Below, piece by piece: positions 1,116 through 29,386 of a stretch of 43,734 bases of DNA. The notes under the pieces are model-generated. The model made no database searches. It worked only from the letters and a program-made list of their open reading frames with translations, and was not told the origin of the DNA. The DNA is from Nitrospira sp. GTDB lineage: Bacteria > Nitrospirota > Nitrospiria > Nitrospirales > Nitrospiraceae. The stretch covers positions 509,730 through 553,463 of the forward strand of contig SWDM01000016.1 in the NCBI GenBank assembly GCA_005116835.1, given 5' to 3'. Both the position numbers and the translations under genes were made by a program. Position 1 is the stretch's first letter. Every line of letters starts with the position of its first letter.

Positions 1116-1120
1116 AGATA

Positions 1121-1153
1121 TGAGTGCTGAGTGCTGAGTGCTGAGACGTGAAG
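1121..1153. repeat. Period-7 array (TGAGTGC), left arm
   Basis: Three perfect TGAGTGC units are followed by TGAGACG and TGAAGAC. The array ends next to the stop codon of the four-helix-bundle gene at 1155. An inverted counterpart lies beyond the other end of that gene at 1573-1606, sharing the exact core AGTGCTGAGACGT. Related arrays occur at 29289-29386 and 33616-33643. Confidence 0.85.
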
Positions 1154-1154
1154 A

Positions 1155-1556
1155 CTAGCAACCATGTGATTTCTGTTCTGCACGGCGGCGTTGGACCGCC
1201 GACCTGAGTCCGCCGAGGACAAGAGAAACTTCCTTCGCGAGACTCATCAGTTCGTTGAACGTCCCGTCATCGACATACTTGGCGTCATGCGCGACGTACA
1301 AGTGAGAGCGACGCTCCGCGCAAGAGGACTTGGCAATGCTCAAGAACTGGTGAAACTCCGATTGCCTGGCTCGCTCAAACCCCTCGGCAATATTGGCCAT
1401 GATGGAGACTGACGAACGTCTGACCTGATCTCGTAATCCAAAGTCTTTCGCAAAATGCCCTTTCCCAGTTACCTCGTACACTTTCTTAGTCAACTCCCGC
1501 GCCTTTTGCCATGCAATGAGATCCTCAAACCGCCTTGCTGCGCTGCGCTCAGGCAT
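1155..1556 (-). CDS. Four-helix-bundle protein (S23/bAvd-like)
   Basis: A 133-residue, largely helical basic protein. It carries the family hallmarks: an N-terminal [19 protein letters not shown] helix, the [20 protein letters not shown] segment, and the [13 protein letters not shown] and E-x3-L helices. Members of this family (23S rRNA intervening-sequence protein, bAvd of diversity-generating retroelements) form four-helix bundles. Most have no known function, and some sit in 23S rRNA insertions. No rRNA or reverse transcriptase is nearby. Inverted period-7 arrays flank the gene closely on both sides (1121-1153 and 1573-1606). A weak ribosome site, GGGA, lies seven bases before the ATG. The enclosed arrangement suggests a cassette rather than a resident gene. 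Confidence 0.9.
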
Positions 1557-1572
1557 TATCGTTTCCCTATAT

Positions 1573-1606
1573 TCTCAGCACTCAGCACTTACGTCTCAGC
1601 ACTGAA
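1573..1606. repeat. Period-7 array, right arm
   Basis: CTCAGCA/CTCAGCA-type units, then an ACGTCTCAGCACTGAA core that is the inverse of part of the left arm at 1121. The array overlaps the 3' end of the VOC gene and supplies its last codons (RFSAET and stop). It also lies just upstream of the four-helix-bundle gene's start, so it is that gene's promoter-side flank. Confidence 0.85.
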
Positions 1607-2177: not shown

Positions 2178-2205
2178 GATTTGGCGATCTGGCGATTTGG
2201 TGAAG
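2178..2205. repeat. Period-8 array (GATTTGGC), left arm
   Basis: Three 8-base units, GATTTGGC, GATCTGGC and GATTTGGT, then GAAG. The array ends one base before the ATG of the four-helix-bundle gene at 2207, so its GGTGAAG tail is the only candidate ribosome-binding sequence. The inverted counterpart is at 2618-2649; the two arms match at 24 of 28 positions by hand alignment. Confidence 0.85.
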
Positions 2206-2206
2206 T

Positions 2207-2572
2207 ATGGGAACCGTTGGAGCTGAAGATCTGAGGCAACGGACCAAGCGCTTCGCTCTTCTCATAGTGAAATTGTCTCAACAACTCACGCATGGAAGGG
2301 AAGCGAGGGTCATTGGTGATCAGCTACTTCGGGCAGGGACAGCGGTCGCTGCAAACTATCGAGCAGCTTGTCGCGGACGATCGAGAGCGGAGTTTATTGC
2401 TAAGCTCGGAATTGTGGTTGAAGAAGCGGACGAGACAGTGTTCTGGTGTGAGCTTCTTGAAGAGGCCGGAATCGCCACTCCTGAAGTAATTCAGCCCGTC
2501 ATGGGTGAAGCGAGAGAACTTCTGGCAATATTCTCGGCAGCTCGAAAAACGGCCAAGGCTCGAAAAGTTTAG
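2207..2572 (+). CDS. Four-helix-bundle protein (S23/bAvd-like), second copy
   Basis: 121 residues with the same family signature as the gene at 1155: an N-terminal RTKRFALLIVKLSQQL helix, then QLLRAGTAVAANYRAACRG, then FIAKLGIVVEEADETVFWCELLEEAG. The two proteins are clearly diverged, so this is not a recent tandem duplication. The gene is enclosed by inverted period-8 arrays at 2178-2205 and 2618-2649 and begins immediately after the left one. The function is unknown; family members are helical bundles, some involved in binding nucleic acid or retroelement reverse transcriptase. It is co-directional with hemD, 41 bases downstream. Confidence 0.9.
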   Translation: MGTVGAEDLRQRTKRFALLIVKLSQQLTHGREARVIGDQLLRAGTAVAANYRAACRGRSRAEFIAKLGIVVEEADETVFWCELLEEAGIATPEVIQPVMGEARELLAIFSAARKTAKARKV

Positions 2573-2613
2573 GCCGTTACTACAGACTCTTCTGAGCAAC
2601 TACATCAATACCC

Positions 2614-3492
2614 ATGGCTTCACCAGATCGCCAAATCACCAAATTACACTTTCAAGGGCTCACCGTCGCCTCATTTGAGTCTCGCATGGCGGCAGAGATC
2701 GCCAGGCTCATTGAGCGCCATGGGGGAAAGCCTCTCGTCACTCCTGCCCTTCGCGAGATTCCACTCGATGACAATTCCGCAGCGCTGAAGTTTGGGGACC
2801 GGCTGACGACCGAGCGGGTCGATATGCTCATTCTTCTTACCGGCGTCGGGACAACCGCACTGTTCGATCTCCTCAAAACACGCAATCCCTGGCCGTCGAT
2901 TGTGGCAGCCCTCAAACAGACGGTTATCGTTGCCAGAGGACCCAAGCCGGTCTCAGCCCTCAAATCACTCGGCCTCCAACCGACTCTGACAGTGCCGGAA
3001 CCGAACACCTGGATCGATCTGATCTCCACGCTGGATGAGTATCGGCCGGTGAAGGGATTGCGCGTCGCCGTGCAGGAATATGGGACGTCAAATCATGATC
3101 TGCTAGAGGCCTTAAAACAGCGCGGGGCTGAAGTCTTTCAGGTTCCCATCTATCGCTGGACGCTCCCAGAAGATCTGGGGCCGCTGCGGCAGGTTCTCGA
3201 CGAAATTATCGCTGAGAATGTGCCAGCACTGCTCATCACCAATGCTGCCCAAGTAGATCATGTGATGCAGGTATTGGAGAAAGACGGAAAGGCAGAGCCC
3301 TTTCGTGCCGCGCTCAAGAAGATGGTCATCGCCTCCATCGGCCCGACTGCCAGCGAACGGCTGCGCCATTACGAGTGGCCGATCGACCTCGAACCCTCCC
3401 ACCCGAAGATGGGAGTGCTCGTCAAAGAATGTGCCGAGCAGGTACAGACGCTGCTGAACACCAAACGCTGTGCGATGTATCCTAAACTGTGA
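2614..3492 (+). CDS. hemD: Uroporphyrinogen-III synthase
   Basis: 292 residues with the bilobed HemD pattern. The N-lobe has the GLTVASFESRMAAEIARL opening and MLILLTGVGTTALFDLL. The C-lobe has VAVQEYGTSNHDLLEAL, PALLITNAAQVDHVMQVL and VIASIGPTASERLRHY. HemD closes hydroxymethylbilane to uroporphyrinogen III in tetrapyrrole (haem, sirohaem) synthesis. The family is poorly conserved in sequence and the call rests on the overall pattern. The first 12 residues (MASPDRQITKLH) are encoded by the right arm of the period-8 array at 2618-2649, so the start codon appears to have been supplied or displaced by that repeat; the family-like part begins at about residue 13. No other haem genes are adjacent. 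Confidence 0.85.
   Translation: MASPDRQITKLHFQGLTVASFESRMAAEIARLIERHGGKPLVTPALREIPLDDNSAALKFGDRLTTERVDMLILLTGVGTTALFDLLKTRNPWPSIVAALKQTVIVARGPKPVSALKSLGLQPTLTVPEPNTWIDLISTLDEYRPVKGLRVAVQEYGTSNHDLLEALKQRGAEVFQVPIYRWTLPEDLGPLRQVLDEIIAENVPALLITNAAQVDHVMQVLEKDGKAEPFRAALKKMVIASIGPTASERLRHYEWPIDLEPSHPKMGVLVKECAEQVQTLLNTKRCAMYPKL
2618..2649. repeat. Period-8 array, right arm, inside the hemD start
   Basis: The inverse of the array at 2178: CACCAGATCGCCAAATCACC and a further unit. It lies within codons 2-12 of hemD. Together the arms enclose 2207-2572, giving an element of roughly 470 bp. Confidence 0.85.
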
Positions 3493-4598: not shown

Positions 4599-4726
4599 GC
4601 AGGATGCTCAAAAAGCCCGTCCAGCAAGGCCGCAGCCGATGAAAGCACCGGAGGCGTAGCCTCTGGGCTACGTTGAGGATGCTTTCGAGGGGAGAACGCC
4701 GCTGGCGGGCTTTTTCAGCATCCTGC
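4599..4726. repeat. Hairpin element, type E copy 1
   Basis: A 128-bp element with terminal inverted repeats of 21 bases and one mismatch (GCAGGATGCTCAAAAAGCCCG at the left). The centre is a second small hairpin, GGCGTAGCC..GGCTACG, followed by TTGAGGAT. It ends exactly where the yceI stop codon begins and could form a strong transcript-ending hairpin for yceI. It is homologous along its length to 17988-18109, and its centre matches the 40790 element. Confidence 0.85.
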
Positions 4727-5328
4727 TAGGGTTTCGCCTTGATACATTCAATCTCAAGCCGTATCTGGACCTCATCCCCGACGACGAGCCCACCGCTATC
4801 CAACGTTTTGTTCCAGATCATCCCGAAATCTTTGCGGTTGAGTTTCCCTTCCGCGCTGAAGCCGGCCCTCGTGTTGCCCCAGGGATCCTTCGTCGCCCCG
4901 TTATACTGGCCCGCCAAGGTGACTTCTTTGGTCACCCCGTGAAGCATAAGGTCTCCCAAAGCGACAAAACCCTCTGCGACCTTCTTGTAGCTCTTCATCT
5001 TGAAGGTGATCGTCGGATAGTGTTCCACATCGAGAAAGTCGACATTCCGTATATGAGCATCTCGTTTTTCATGATTTGTATTCACCGAGCCAGCCTTGAT
5101 CGTCACCTCAATGGCCTTCACCATACCGGCCTCGGCATCCATGTCGATAAATCCGGCATAGTCCGTAAACCGGCCAGTGGTCTTGGACACAATCATATGG
5201 GCCACCCGAAACTCGATCGTCGAATGGTCAGGGTCCAGGTTCCAACGAGCCTGTTCGGCGTGAGCCGGCAACGGGAGCCAGGCCAGCGCTCCAAACAACA
5301 CGAGCACGAGCCAACTTTTCTTCAGCAT
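4726..5328 (-). CDS. YceI family periplasmic protein
   Basis: 200 residues. A cleavable signal peptide (MLKKSWLVLVLFGALAWLPL, ending PAHA/EQ) precedes the mature domain. The mature domain opens with WNLDPDHSTIEFRVAHMIVS and has GRFTDYAGFIDMD and FLDVEHYPTITFK, all classic for the YceI lipocalin-like fold that binds isoprenoid-type lipids. It should be periplasmic. It begins 67 bases downstream, in transcription order, of the TonB-C-domain gene on the same strand (stop at 5396), so they may share a transcript. The type E hairpin abuts its stop codon. Confidence 0.92.
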   Translation of the reverse strand: MLKKSWLVLVLFGALAWLPLPAHAEQARWNLDPDHSTIEFRVAHMIVSKTTGRFTDYAGFIDMDAEAGMVKAIEVTIKAGSVNTNHEKRDAHIRNVDFLDVEHYPTITFKMKSYKKVAEGFVALGDLMLHGVTKEVTLAGQYNGATKDPWGNTRAGFSAEGKLNRKDFGMIWNKTLDSGGLVVGDEVQIRLEIECIKAKP

Positions 5329-6430: not shown

Positions 6431-6526
6431 CGTCTGGTTGATCTGGTATGTTTGGTTTGTCTCGTTTATTTGGTTGAATGAATCTAACCAGATAAACCAA
6501 ACAAACCAGATCAACCAGATATACCG
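6431..6526. repeat. Period-9 palindrome, copy 1
   Basis: Left arm units of nine bases (TTGATCTGG, TATGTTTGG, TTTGTCTCG, TTTATTTGG) face a right arm of CCAGATAAA, CCAAACAAA, CCAGATCAA, CCAGATATA. The arms are imperfect inverse copies around a roughly 10-base centre. It occupies the divergent promoter region of the TonB-C gene and tdh. Confidence 0.85.
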
Positions 6527-7591: not shown

Positions 7592-7595
7592 AAAG

Positions 7596-7692
7596 CTTTC
7601 AGCTGTCAGCCTTCAGCTATCAGCCTGGATTTCATGCGAAAATGTTCTGCTTCTGCGTCCATCCGAAGCTGACAGCTAATCGCTGACGGCTG
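7596..7692. repeat. Period-7 palindrome between tdh and kbl
   Basis: Left arm units CAGCTGT, CAGCCTT, CAGCTAT, CAGCCTG at 7600-7627. The right arm is their inverse (GCTGACAGCTAATCGCTGACGG region, 7668-7692). About 35 unrelated bases lie between the arms. It is the same design as the other periodic palindromes, with a different unit, and it lies inside a likely operon. Confidence 0.8.
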
Positions 7693-7709
7693 TATGCTCA
7701 GTTAAGAAG

Positions 7710-8903: not shown

Positions 8904-8995
8904 TGTTTATTTAGTTTATTTGGTCTATTTAGTTCATCTGGTTTCTCTCATTCACAACCAAACAAACCAAACCAACCAGATGAACTAAACAAACC
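8904..8995. repeat. Period-9 palindrome, copy 2
   Basis: Left arm TTTATTTAG, TTTATTTGG, TCTATTTAG, TTCATCTGG. The right arm is the inverse (CCAAACAAA, CCAAACCAA, CCAGATGAA, CTAAACAAA). It lies between the convergent kbl and mlaA genes, where the hairpin could end transcription from both sides. Confidence 0.85.
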
Positions 8996-28703: not shown

Positions 28704-29330
28704 TTATTTGACGGTGGTGTCCGAGGTATCCGAGGACGGATCTTTATTCGGCTTTACGAGCAGCCCCGATTCTAACTGGAGCAGAAAGCGGGAAGCCAGA
28801 TCTTCGGCGATAAAACGGCCCGCTTGTTCCAAAGCCCGGTTCTGCAGGACGCGATTAAATTGCAGGTCGGGCGTTACGAAGAACTCCGAGGCGCCCTTGG
28901 CCGTTTGTGCCCAGACGAGACGTTTCGTCCTAGTCTCCTCCACTTTGACAATTACCACGACCTCTGCGCGGCTTTCGAGCGTGGTGGTCTGGCTAAAACT
29001 GAGCGTTGGAAGACTGACCGAGAGAATCTGCCCGGAGAGTACAAGATCGGCCGCCTCATCCTCCTGAACGATCTGGGCCCCGCTACCGGAGGAAAACTCA
29101 TGGCGCAGATAATTCGTATAGCGGGTTTCTAAATTTGGCTCAAAGGTTTTGTTCTCCAACGGCAATACGACCAGCCGCGGTGGTGGAACCCTTAGAGAAG
29201 AAGTCTCTGCAGCCCCCCCGATCGTAGGCCCGGCTCCCTCCACACGGAACTGATAACCGCACGCGCCCAGAAGTGCAAGGGTCAGACACAGTGCTGAGAT
29301 CTGAGTGCTGAGAATAGAAAGAGACCACAC
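28704..29330 (-). CDS. lptE: LPS-assembly lipoprotein LptE
   Basis: Start uncertain. From the GTG at 29330 the protein is 208 residues and opens with VWSLSILSTQISALCLTLAL and then the lipobox LLGAC (Cys at about 24). The first half of this signal is encoded by the period-7 repeat at 29289. The mature part has the LptE pattern: YQFRVEG, VVLPLENKTFEPNLETRYTN, AADLVLSGQILSVSLPTLSF and a QFNRVLQNRALEQAGRFIAEDL helix. LptE plugs LptD and helps insert lipopolysaccharide. Its position between leuS and holA is the classic gene order. The n-region lacks a positive charge from this start, so an upstream non-ATG start is possible. Confidence 0.85.
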   Translation of the reverse strand: MWSLSILSTQISALCLTLALLGACGYQFRVEGAGPTIGGAAETSSLRVPPPRLVVLPLENKTFEPNLETRYTNYLRHEFSSGSGAQIVQEDEAADLVLSGQILSVSLPTLSFSQTTTLESRAEVVVIVKVEETRTKRLVWAQTAKGASEFFVTPDLQFNRVLQNRALEQAGRFIAEDLASRFLLQLESGLLVKPNKDPSSDTSDTTVK

Positions 29331-29386
29331 TCTCTCGATCCGAATCGCACCATTTTTAGTCTCAGCACTCAGCACCCAGCACTCCC
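29289..29386. repeat. Period-7 palindrome between leuS and lptE
   Basis: Left arm CAGTGCTGAGATCTGAGTGC (29289-29308, extending to 29313). The right arm is the inverse, CTCAGCACTCAGCACCCAGC, at 29361-29380 and on to 29386. The spacer is about 45 bases. The unit is the same as at 1121 and 33616. The right arm abuts the leuS stop codon and the left arm lies in the lptE signal-peptide codons. Confidence 0.85.

Follow-up and report, generated by a model that had tools for sequence, protein, structure and literature searches.

Inverted tandem arrays flanking PF05635 genes in Nitrospira, and a hairpin arm that appears to encode the N-terminus of HemD

The 23S rRNA intervening sequence lies in a helix of 16S or 23S rRNA and is excised by RNase III without ligation. 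RAYT/REPIN systems consist of a gene encoding a REP-associated tyrosine (HUH) transposase and of flanking palindromes, which are also dispersed without the gene. Rickettsia palindromic elements are found inside open reading frames; they carry no gene, and the palindromic repeat is translated within the host protein.

In the accessible text of one report, the intervening sequence of the Coxiella burnetii 23S rRNA is described as an S23p/IVP gene within a stem of complementary borders, with a sporadic distribution (PMC4990558). The same text presents the S23p/PF05635 proteins as having no known function and the 2gsc-type proteins as pentamers of four-helix bundles, and it reports that the open reading frame of the Coxiella intervening sequence decays (PMC4990558). 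PF05635 is similar in sequence and structure to Avd, the accessory protein of diversity-generating retroelements, according to the accessible passages of a further paper (PMC10053308). A conserved tag, GTAG/CGTC, is placed at the base of the RAYT/REPIN palindrome in the accessible parts of two studies (PMC2817692, PMC3116915), and those of another describe the Beggiatoaceae TAACTGA sequences as intergenic heptamer direct repeats, with one inverted case (PMC4679880).

The element upstream of hemD

The window, that is, the whole stretch of 43,734 nucleotides of Nitrospira DNA that was analysed, contains a PF05635 gene flanked by two inverted arrays of an 8-nt unit. This element is located between a glyoxalase-like gene and hemD and not in an rRNA helix. 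Its features, together with hemD, are as follows.

2178..2205, + strand: left array, 3.5 copies of the 8-nt unit GATTTGGY, with the 3' end GGTGAAG
2207..2572, + strand: PF05635/TIGR02436 four-helix-bundle gene, 121 aa, in the hairpin loop
2611..2617, + strand: inner extension of the inverted repeat, HemD ATG included, the predicted pairing partner of 2206-2211, where the PF05635 ATG lies
2618..2645, - strand: right array, inverted copy of the 8-nt unit, encoding HemD A2 (in part) to L11
2614..3492, + strand: HemD (HEM4) gene with an array-coded N-terminus and a Pfam match from residue 28

The left array (2178-2205) reads GATTTGGC GATCTGGC GATTTGGT GAAG and the right array (2618-2645), in the inverted reading, AATTTGGT GATTTGGC GATCTGGT GAAG. 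In the original prediction the bundle gene was said to start one base after the left array and to have GGTGAAG as its sole ribosome-site candidate. Both points were borne out, since the array ends at 2205, T2206 alone forms the spacer and the ATG follows at 2207, and no other candidate was visible. The product of 2207-2572 matched PF05635, the "23S rRNA intervening sequence protein" family, with 55.1 bits (cut-off 33.8) and TIGR02436 with 78.7 bits (cut-off 24); solved structures of relatives are 2gsc and 2rld.

The arm score of the hemD-site element was 47, a value reached by none of 5000 first-order Markov shuffles and at none of 2015 places of equal geometry elsewhere in the window. The RNA fold of 2160-2660 had a free energy of -193.4 kcal/mol compared with a shuffle mean of -156.4 (z = -5.97), and none of 100 shuffles was as low. 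The predicted RNA stem (2178-2211/2611-2645) holds the start codons of both the PF05635 gene and hemD and also covers the ribosome site of the bundle gene. An Rfam scan of the window gave a tRNA as its sole match, with no known RNA family at the arrays, and a known RNA family was therefore rejected as the identity of the element.

HemD starts at the ATG at 2614-2616. The claim that its residues 1-12 are encoded by the right array held for residues 2-11 only: M1 falls within the short inner extension that pairs with the left arm, and H12 lies just beyond the array. For comparison across the genus, 27 HemD loci with a readable N-terminus were available from 30 genomes with a match, the distant G007 and the truncated G016 and G010 having been left out. 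The array-coded start MxSPDRQIxKxH was found at three of these 27 loci (the window, G031 and G012), and in all three the frame was open through the array, in agreement with the expectation that hemD had been left translatable. The seven nearest other HemD proteins (L013-L019; 78-86% identity) begin with MAT(A/V)G or MTTTG directly before F13. Compared with these near relatives, the leader and codons 1-5 of hemD have been replaced and not merely interrupted. Residues 1-12 are not conserved among HemD orthologues that have no repeat, which upheld the predicted rewriting of the N-terminus. Judged from these sequences, the first dozen residues of HemD, a heme-pathway protein, appear to be written by one arm of a gene-carrying hairpin element.

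Other genomes carried related arrangements. In G012, whose HemD is 63% identical, the N-terminus is array-coded in a similar way; the array there is longer, and the bundle gene is present. In G031 the array-coded start is accompanied by a little element-like leader and there is no bundle gene just upstream of hemD; since the array is found there without the gene, a rewritten start can persist after loss of the gene, provided that the gene ever stood at this site. The array ends at the hemD ATG in G021 and G023, and in G020 (L036, G020:C27) a proline-rich stretch joins the bundle gene and HemD into a single open frame of 426 aa. In G002, approximately 700 bases downstream of the intact hemD gene, there is another short HemD-like fragment (L016, G002:C9:122214-122336; residues 245-285, 59% identity).

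A PF05635 gene was located just upstream of hemD in nine of the 27 genomes. Its distribution was patchy, required six changes on the HemD tree, and fits age, loss and re-insertion alike. A PF05635 tree was built from 127 of the 137 elements of the genus (rows of fewer than 80 residues were left out) and had long branches. In this tree the nine upstream genes belonged to a hemD-linked clade of 12 rows (support 98/98), the three other members being two genes just downstream of hemD and one on another contig in G018. The earlier description of an inserted element is too simple, given that the hemD-linked genes form one genus-wide clade and that G031 has the array without the gene; on the sequence comparisons, an old element that was repeatedly lost or re-made would account for the hemD site no less well than a recent insertion. 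The label of essential enzyme, which HemD had also been given, is doubtful. A further HEM4 match of lower strength, in a reading frame of roughly 520-550 aa, is present in most genus genomes; the single one examined was a TP_methylase-HEM4 fusion (CobA-HemD type). With this second HEM4 protein, there is probably another uroporphyrinogen-III synthase besides the array-coded HemD.

Arrays around PF05635 genes in the genus and in other phyla

A second PF05635 element with the unit TGAGTGC (window 1118-1606) was observed 600 bases from the hemD-site element, in the opposite orientation.

1120..1145, + strand: left array of the second element, 7-nt unit TGAGTGC
1155..1556, - strand: second PF05635 gene, 133 aa, in the loop
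1573..1603, - strand: right array, encoding the C-terminus (SAET, stop) of the glyoxalase-like gene at 1589-2032

Between the MBL-fold and glyoxalase-like genes, where this element lies, other genus members have gene-less hairpins built of several units other than TGAGTGC. Window positions 4599-4734 contain a dispersed intergenic repeat of another kind (AAAAAGCCCGTCCAGC...), which was also seen ahead of hemD in several relatives.

Each of the ten PF05635 genes in this genome is enclosed by inverted arrays of short tandem repeats. Every element has a unit of its own, examples being TGAGTGC, GTCATCAA, GTGAGGG, AGCTGTC, TTTGGTTTG and GAGTTCT. Across the genus, 144 PF05635 matches in 32 genomes were merged into 137 elements (seven genes were split over two rows, and two doubly fetched loci were left out); nine of these did not have enough flank, leaving 128. 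An arm score of at least 32 was obtained for 106 of the 128 elements, compared with 1.3% of 1000 control intervals from the window and 0.93% of 3000 from the contigs. The cross-phylum set comprised the best 80 of 586 confirmed relatives, of which three had no flank. Among the remaining 77 loci, 62 reached a score of 32 and 58 a score of 36; the corresponding values for 386 same-locus control intervals were 7.3% and 2.6%. When left and right arms were mismatched, 6.2% (genus) and 6.7% (cross-phylum) of the pairs reached 32. A few of the high cross-phylum scores reflected long weak alignments and not arrays; within the best 80 of 586, 54 of 61 loci were periodic, the shorter flank used in the periodicity test accounting for 61 loci rather than 62. 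Among the papers listed from the open-licence PMC literature, none described arrays around PF05635 genes outside rRNA.

The arms followed a common polarity. Read from the outside to the inside they were G-rich and C-poor, G exceeding C in 77 of 89 periodic elements of the genus and in 50 of the 54 periodic elements from other phyla (best 80 of 586 relatives). Because the arms are complementary, this polarity is a property of the hairpin and not of the strand. The commonest 4-mer, GTGA, was present in 28 of the 54 periodic cross-phylum elements (again from the best 80 of 586), the units themselves differing between elements.

PF05635 proteins that were at least 70% alike had the same unit in a by-eye listing, mostly at the same site and also at different sites. 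When protein similarity exceeded 0.6 and there was no flank homology, mean unit similarity was 0.51 (19 pairs) and 0.82 (2 pairs), compared with approximately 0.25 for the rest. Over the whole genus there was no significant relationship between unit distance and protein distance (rho = 0.023; 146 of 500 permutations as high); in the cross-phylum set (best 80 of 586) rho was 0.118, with 19 of 2000 permutations as high. At orthologous sites, the arms of one element resembled each other more closely than they resembled the arms of the other element in 155 of 224 pairs; the opposite held for 58, and 11 were tied. The comparison of L003/L109 with L042/L051/L054 provided a clear case, in which both arms had changed. 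The median dN/dS of PF05635 was 0.086 in 98 orthologous-site pairs, which are non-independent, and values in 27 groups ranged from 0.03 to 0.25, which points to purifying selection on the protein.

In 28 of 86 genus elements the right arm contained the stop codon of the PF05635 gene, and the proteins were often observed to have array-coded tails, such as SELRTQNSEL, THHSSPITTPL and STQHSAQSTQH (L003, L008, L044, L049, L060 and others). The start codon was inside or before the inner end of the left arm in just 13 of the 86. A translational gate of the hemD type is therefore not general, and a ribosome site within the stem was rejected as a general rule.

Gene-less hairpins and the maintenance of the arrays

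Hairpins with similar units and no gene were found in the window at four places.

6433-6520: gene-less hairpin, TTTGG unit, fold z of -9.78
7594-7698: gene-less hairpin, AGCTGTC-like unit
8905-8994: gene-less hairpin, TTTGG-like unit
29290-29382: gene-less hairpin, TGAGTGC unit

On contig C8 (773,569 bases) there were 76 arrays, compared with one in a Markov shuffle, and 54 gene-less hairpins with a median span of 89.5 nt, in 51 of which the left arm had more G than C. At a score of 30, 40 of the 54 hairpins matched an arm of the genome's own ten elements, 53 matched a genus element and 12 matched any of the 54 other-phylum elements (from the best 80 of 586). At a score of 34, the ten elements of this genome matched 33 hairpins, while ten random other-phylum elements matched 2.8 on average and six at most. 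More than half of the C8 hairpins belonged to the TTTGG family; without it, 14, 24 and 10 of 25 hairpins matched own, genus and other-phylum elements, respectively, at a score of 30. In the controls complemented arms were never matched, and reversed arms were also often matched (28 own, 34 genus), a result that we believe to be due to the TTTGG family being nearly its own reverse. When hits in the PF05635 elements were included, the Geobacter sp. AOG1 unit had 20 hits in its own genome and none in seven others, and the Oryzomonas japonica unit had 27 hits in its own genome compared with 0 or 1 in seven others.

Copy number did not track the gene, because the TTTGG-rich genomes G002 (128 hits) and G010 (121 hits) show no gene of that protein cluster, whereas TTTGG hits are few in G004, G025 and G028, which do have the gene. 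For TGAGTGC, the three genomes that carry the gene had 16, 8 and 11 hits, and no other genome had more than 8. Unit copy number was rejected as a proxy for gene presence, since TGAGTGC fits and TTTGG does not; the reversed control for TTTGG was high as well, this unit being nearly its own reverse. The PF05635 gene with the TTTGG unit (L007, G000:C5:200725-201045) was observed to have an in-frame stop in this genome; the presumed partner of 26 of the 54 hairpins may thus be broken here.

The reading that we favour, at a little short of an even chance, is that a hairpin element with a PF05635 gene in its loop is maintained and spread through recognition by the protein, and that at this locus it supplies the HemD start and couples translation. 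The PF05635 protein would recognise the hairpin of its own unit, as RNA or as single-stranded DNA, and this recognition would maintain or spread the hairpins. At hemD, the predicted RNA stem would mask both start codons together with the ribosome site of the bundle gene. Ribosomes that initiate on the bundle gene would unfold the stem and make hemD accessible; translation of HemD would hence be coupled to that of the element, while the element provides the first codons of HemD. What speaks most strongly against this reading is that copy number fits gene presence poorly and that unit and protein are only weakly linked at a distance. We put forward only tentatively, as a possibility well below even, the wider proposal that PF05635 proteins, four-helix bundles with no known nuclease, are sequence-specific partners of polarised short-tandem-array hairpins in a two-part element class across phyla, that each recognises the repeat unit of its own lineage, that they drive spread and arm matching, and that the rRNA intervening sequence is a special case.

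A self-made array with a passenger gene is a serious rival, which we consider possible, if on the doubtful side. Replication slippage and hairpin-templated correction from arm to arm would then produce the arrays, and the PF05635 genes would be passengers that survive well in the loop. This would account for the many hairpins that have no gene, the several gene-less unit types at the MBL-glyoxalase site, the failure of copy number to track the gene and the concerted change of arms at shared sites. It is harder to reconcile with the PF05635-array association in many phyla, with the 21 pairs of closely related proteins that have a common unit at non-orthologous sites, with the common polarity and with the strong constraint on the protein. 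It is unlikely that the hairpins are selected by the host as terminators or RNA stabilisers between genes, with PF05635 genes as incidental neighbours. Their uniform span would suit such a role, as would the mostly intergenic placement of the gene-less C8 copies (33 tandem, 12 convergent, 5 divergent and 4 inside open reading frames); however, a crude map of the genes has 236 tandem, 82 convergent and 80 divergent gaps, so that the hairpins are only slightly depleted in divergent gaps, and neither the sharing of units with PF05635 elements nor the gene-in-loop anatomy would be explained.

Two further alternatives concern hemD itself. The true start of HemD could be downstream, at M25, in which case the array would be a leader and the N-terminus would not have been rewritten. 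HemD residues 1-27 do lie outside the Pfam match, but array-free relatives begin right before F13, so that conserved residues would be cut, and the open frame through the array in each array-bearing genome also argues against this start, which we regard as improbable. It is very improbable that the element represents an ordinary recent IS or MITE event with terminal inverted repeats, even though inverted termini surround a small gene and the element is absent from the hemD site in near relatives. No transposase domain was found, only PF05635/TIGR02436-type models giving matches; the leader and codons were replaced, and no target duplication was apparent by eye, although there was no clean empty site. 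Moreover, the hemD-linked genes form one clade spread over the genus, and the unit pattern, present twice in this genome, was absent from all 31 relatives. With no transposase and an old clade, a recent IS or MITE insertion was set aside.

The anatomical rule of a gene in a polarised, lineage-specific hairpin array, together with gene-less copies, makes the function of PF05635 directly testable, and it would account for a class of degenerate heptamer-like intergenic repeats. Such repeats appear to rewrite the ends of proteins, as at the HemD N-terminus, at the C-terminus of the neighbouring protein and in the in-frame joining of the bundle protein to HemD in G020.

Comparison with described systems

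The palindromic repeat at hemD resembles the Rickettsia palindromic elements in being translated into a host protein; unlike those gene-less elements, which lie within open reading frames, it carries a gene. Like the Beggiatoaceae TAACTGA repeats, as described in the accessible text, there are short tandem 7-mers between genes, and four-helix or S23 proteins are not mentioned in that text (PMC4679880).

In common with the Coxiella intervening sequence, in so far as the accessible account describes it, the elements have a PF05635-type open reading frame, complementary borders that form a (predicted) stem-loop and a sporadic distribution. The differences from that account are that the element is found at protein genes, that its stem is made of short tandem units and that gene-less copies exist; furthermore, the protein here is under purifying selection, whereas the Coxiella open reading frame is reported to decay (PMC4990558).

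As in RAYT/REPIN systems, the palindromic repeats that flank the gene are also dispersed without it in the same genome. Unlike those systems, there is no transposase domain, and degenerate tandem arrays with a unit for each lineage take the place of one conserved palindrome; the conserved GTAG/CGTC base tag, as given in the accessible RAYT/REPIN descriptions, was absent from these elements, the units of which vary. Since RAYT/REPIN has a transposase, the PF05635 elements are not members of that family. We read them as a hairpin family of two parts, with an organisation that resembles RAYT/REPIN and a protein that is not a transposase.
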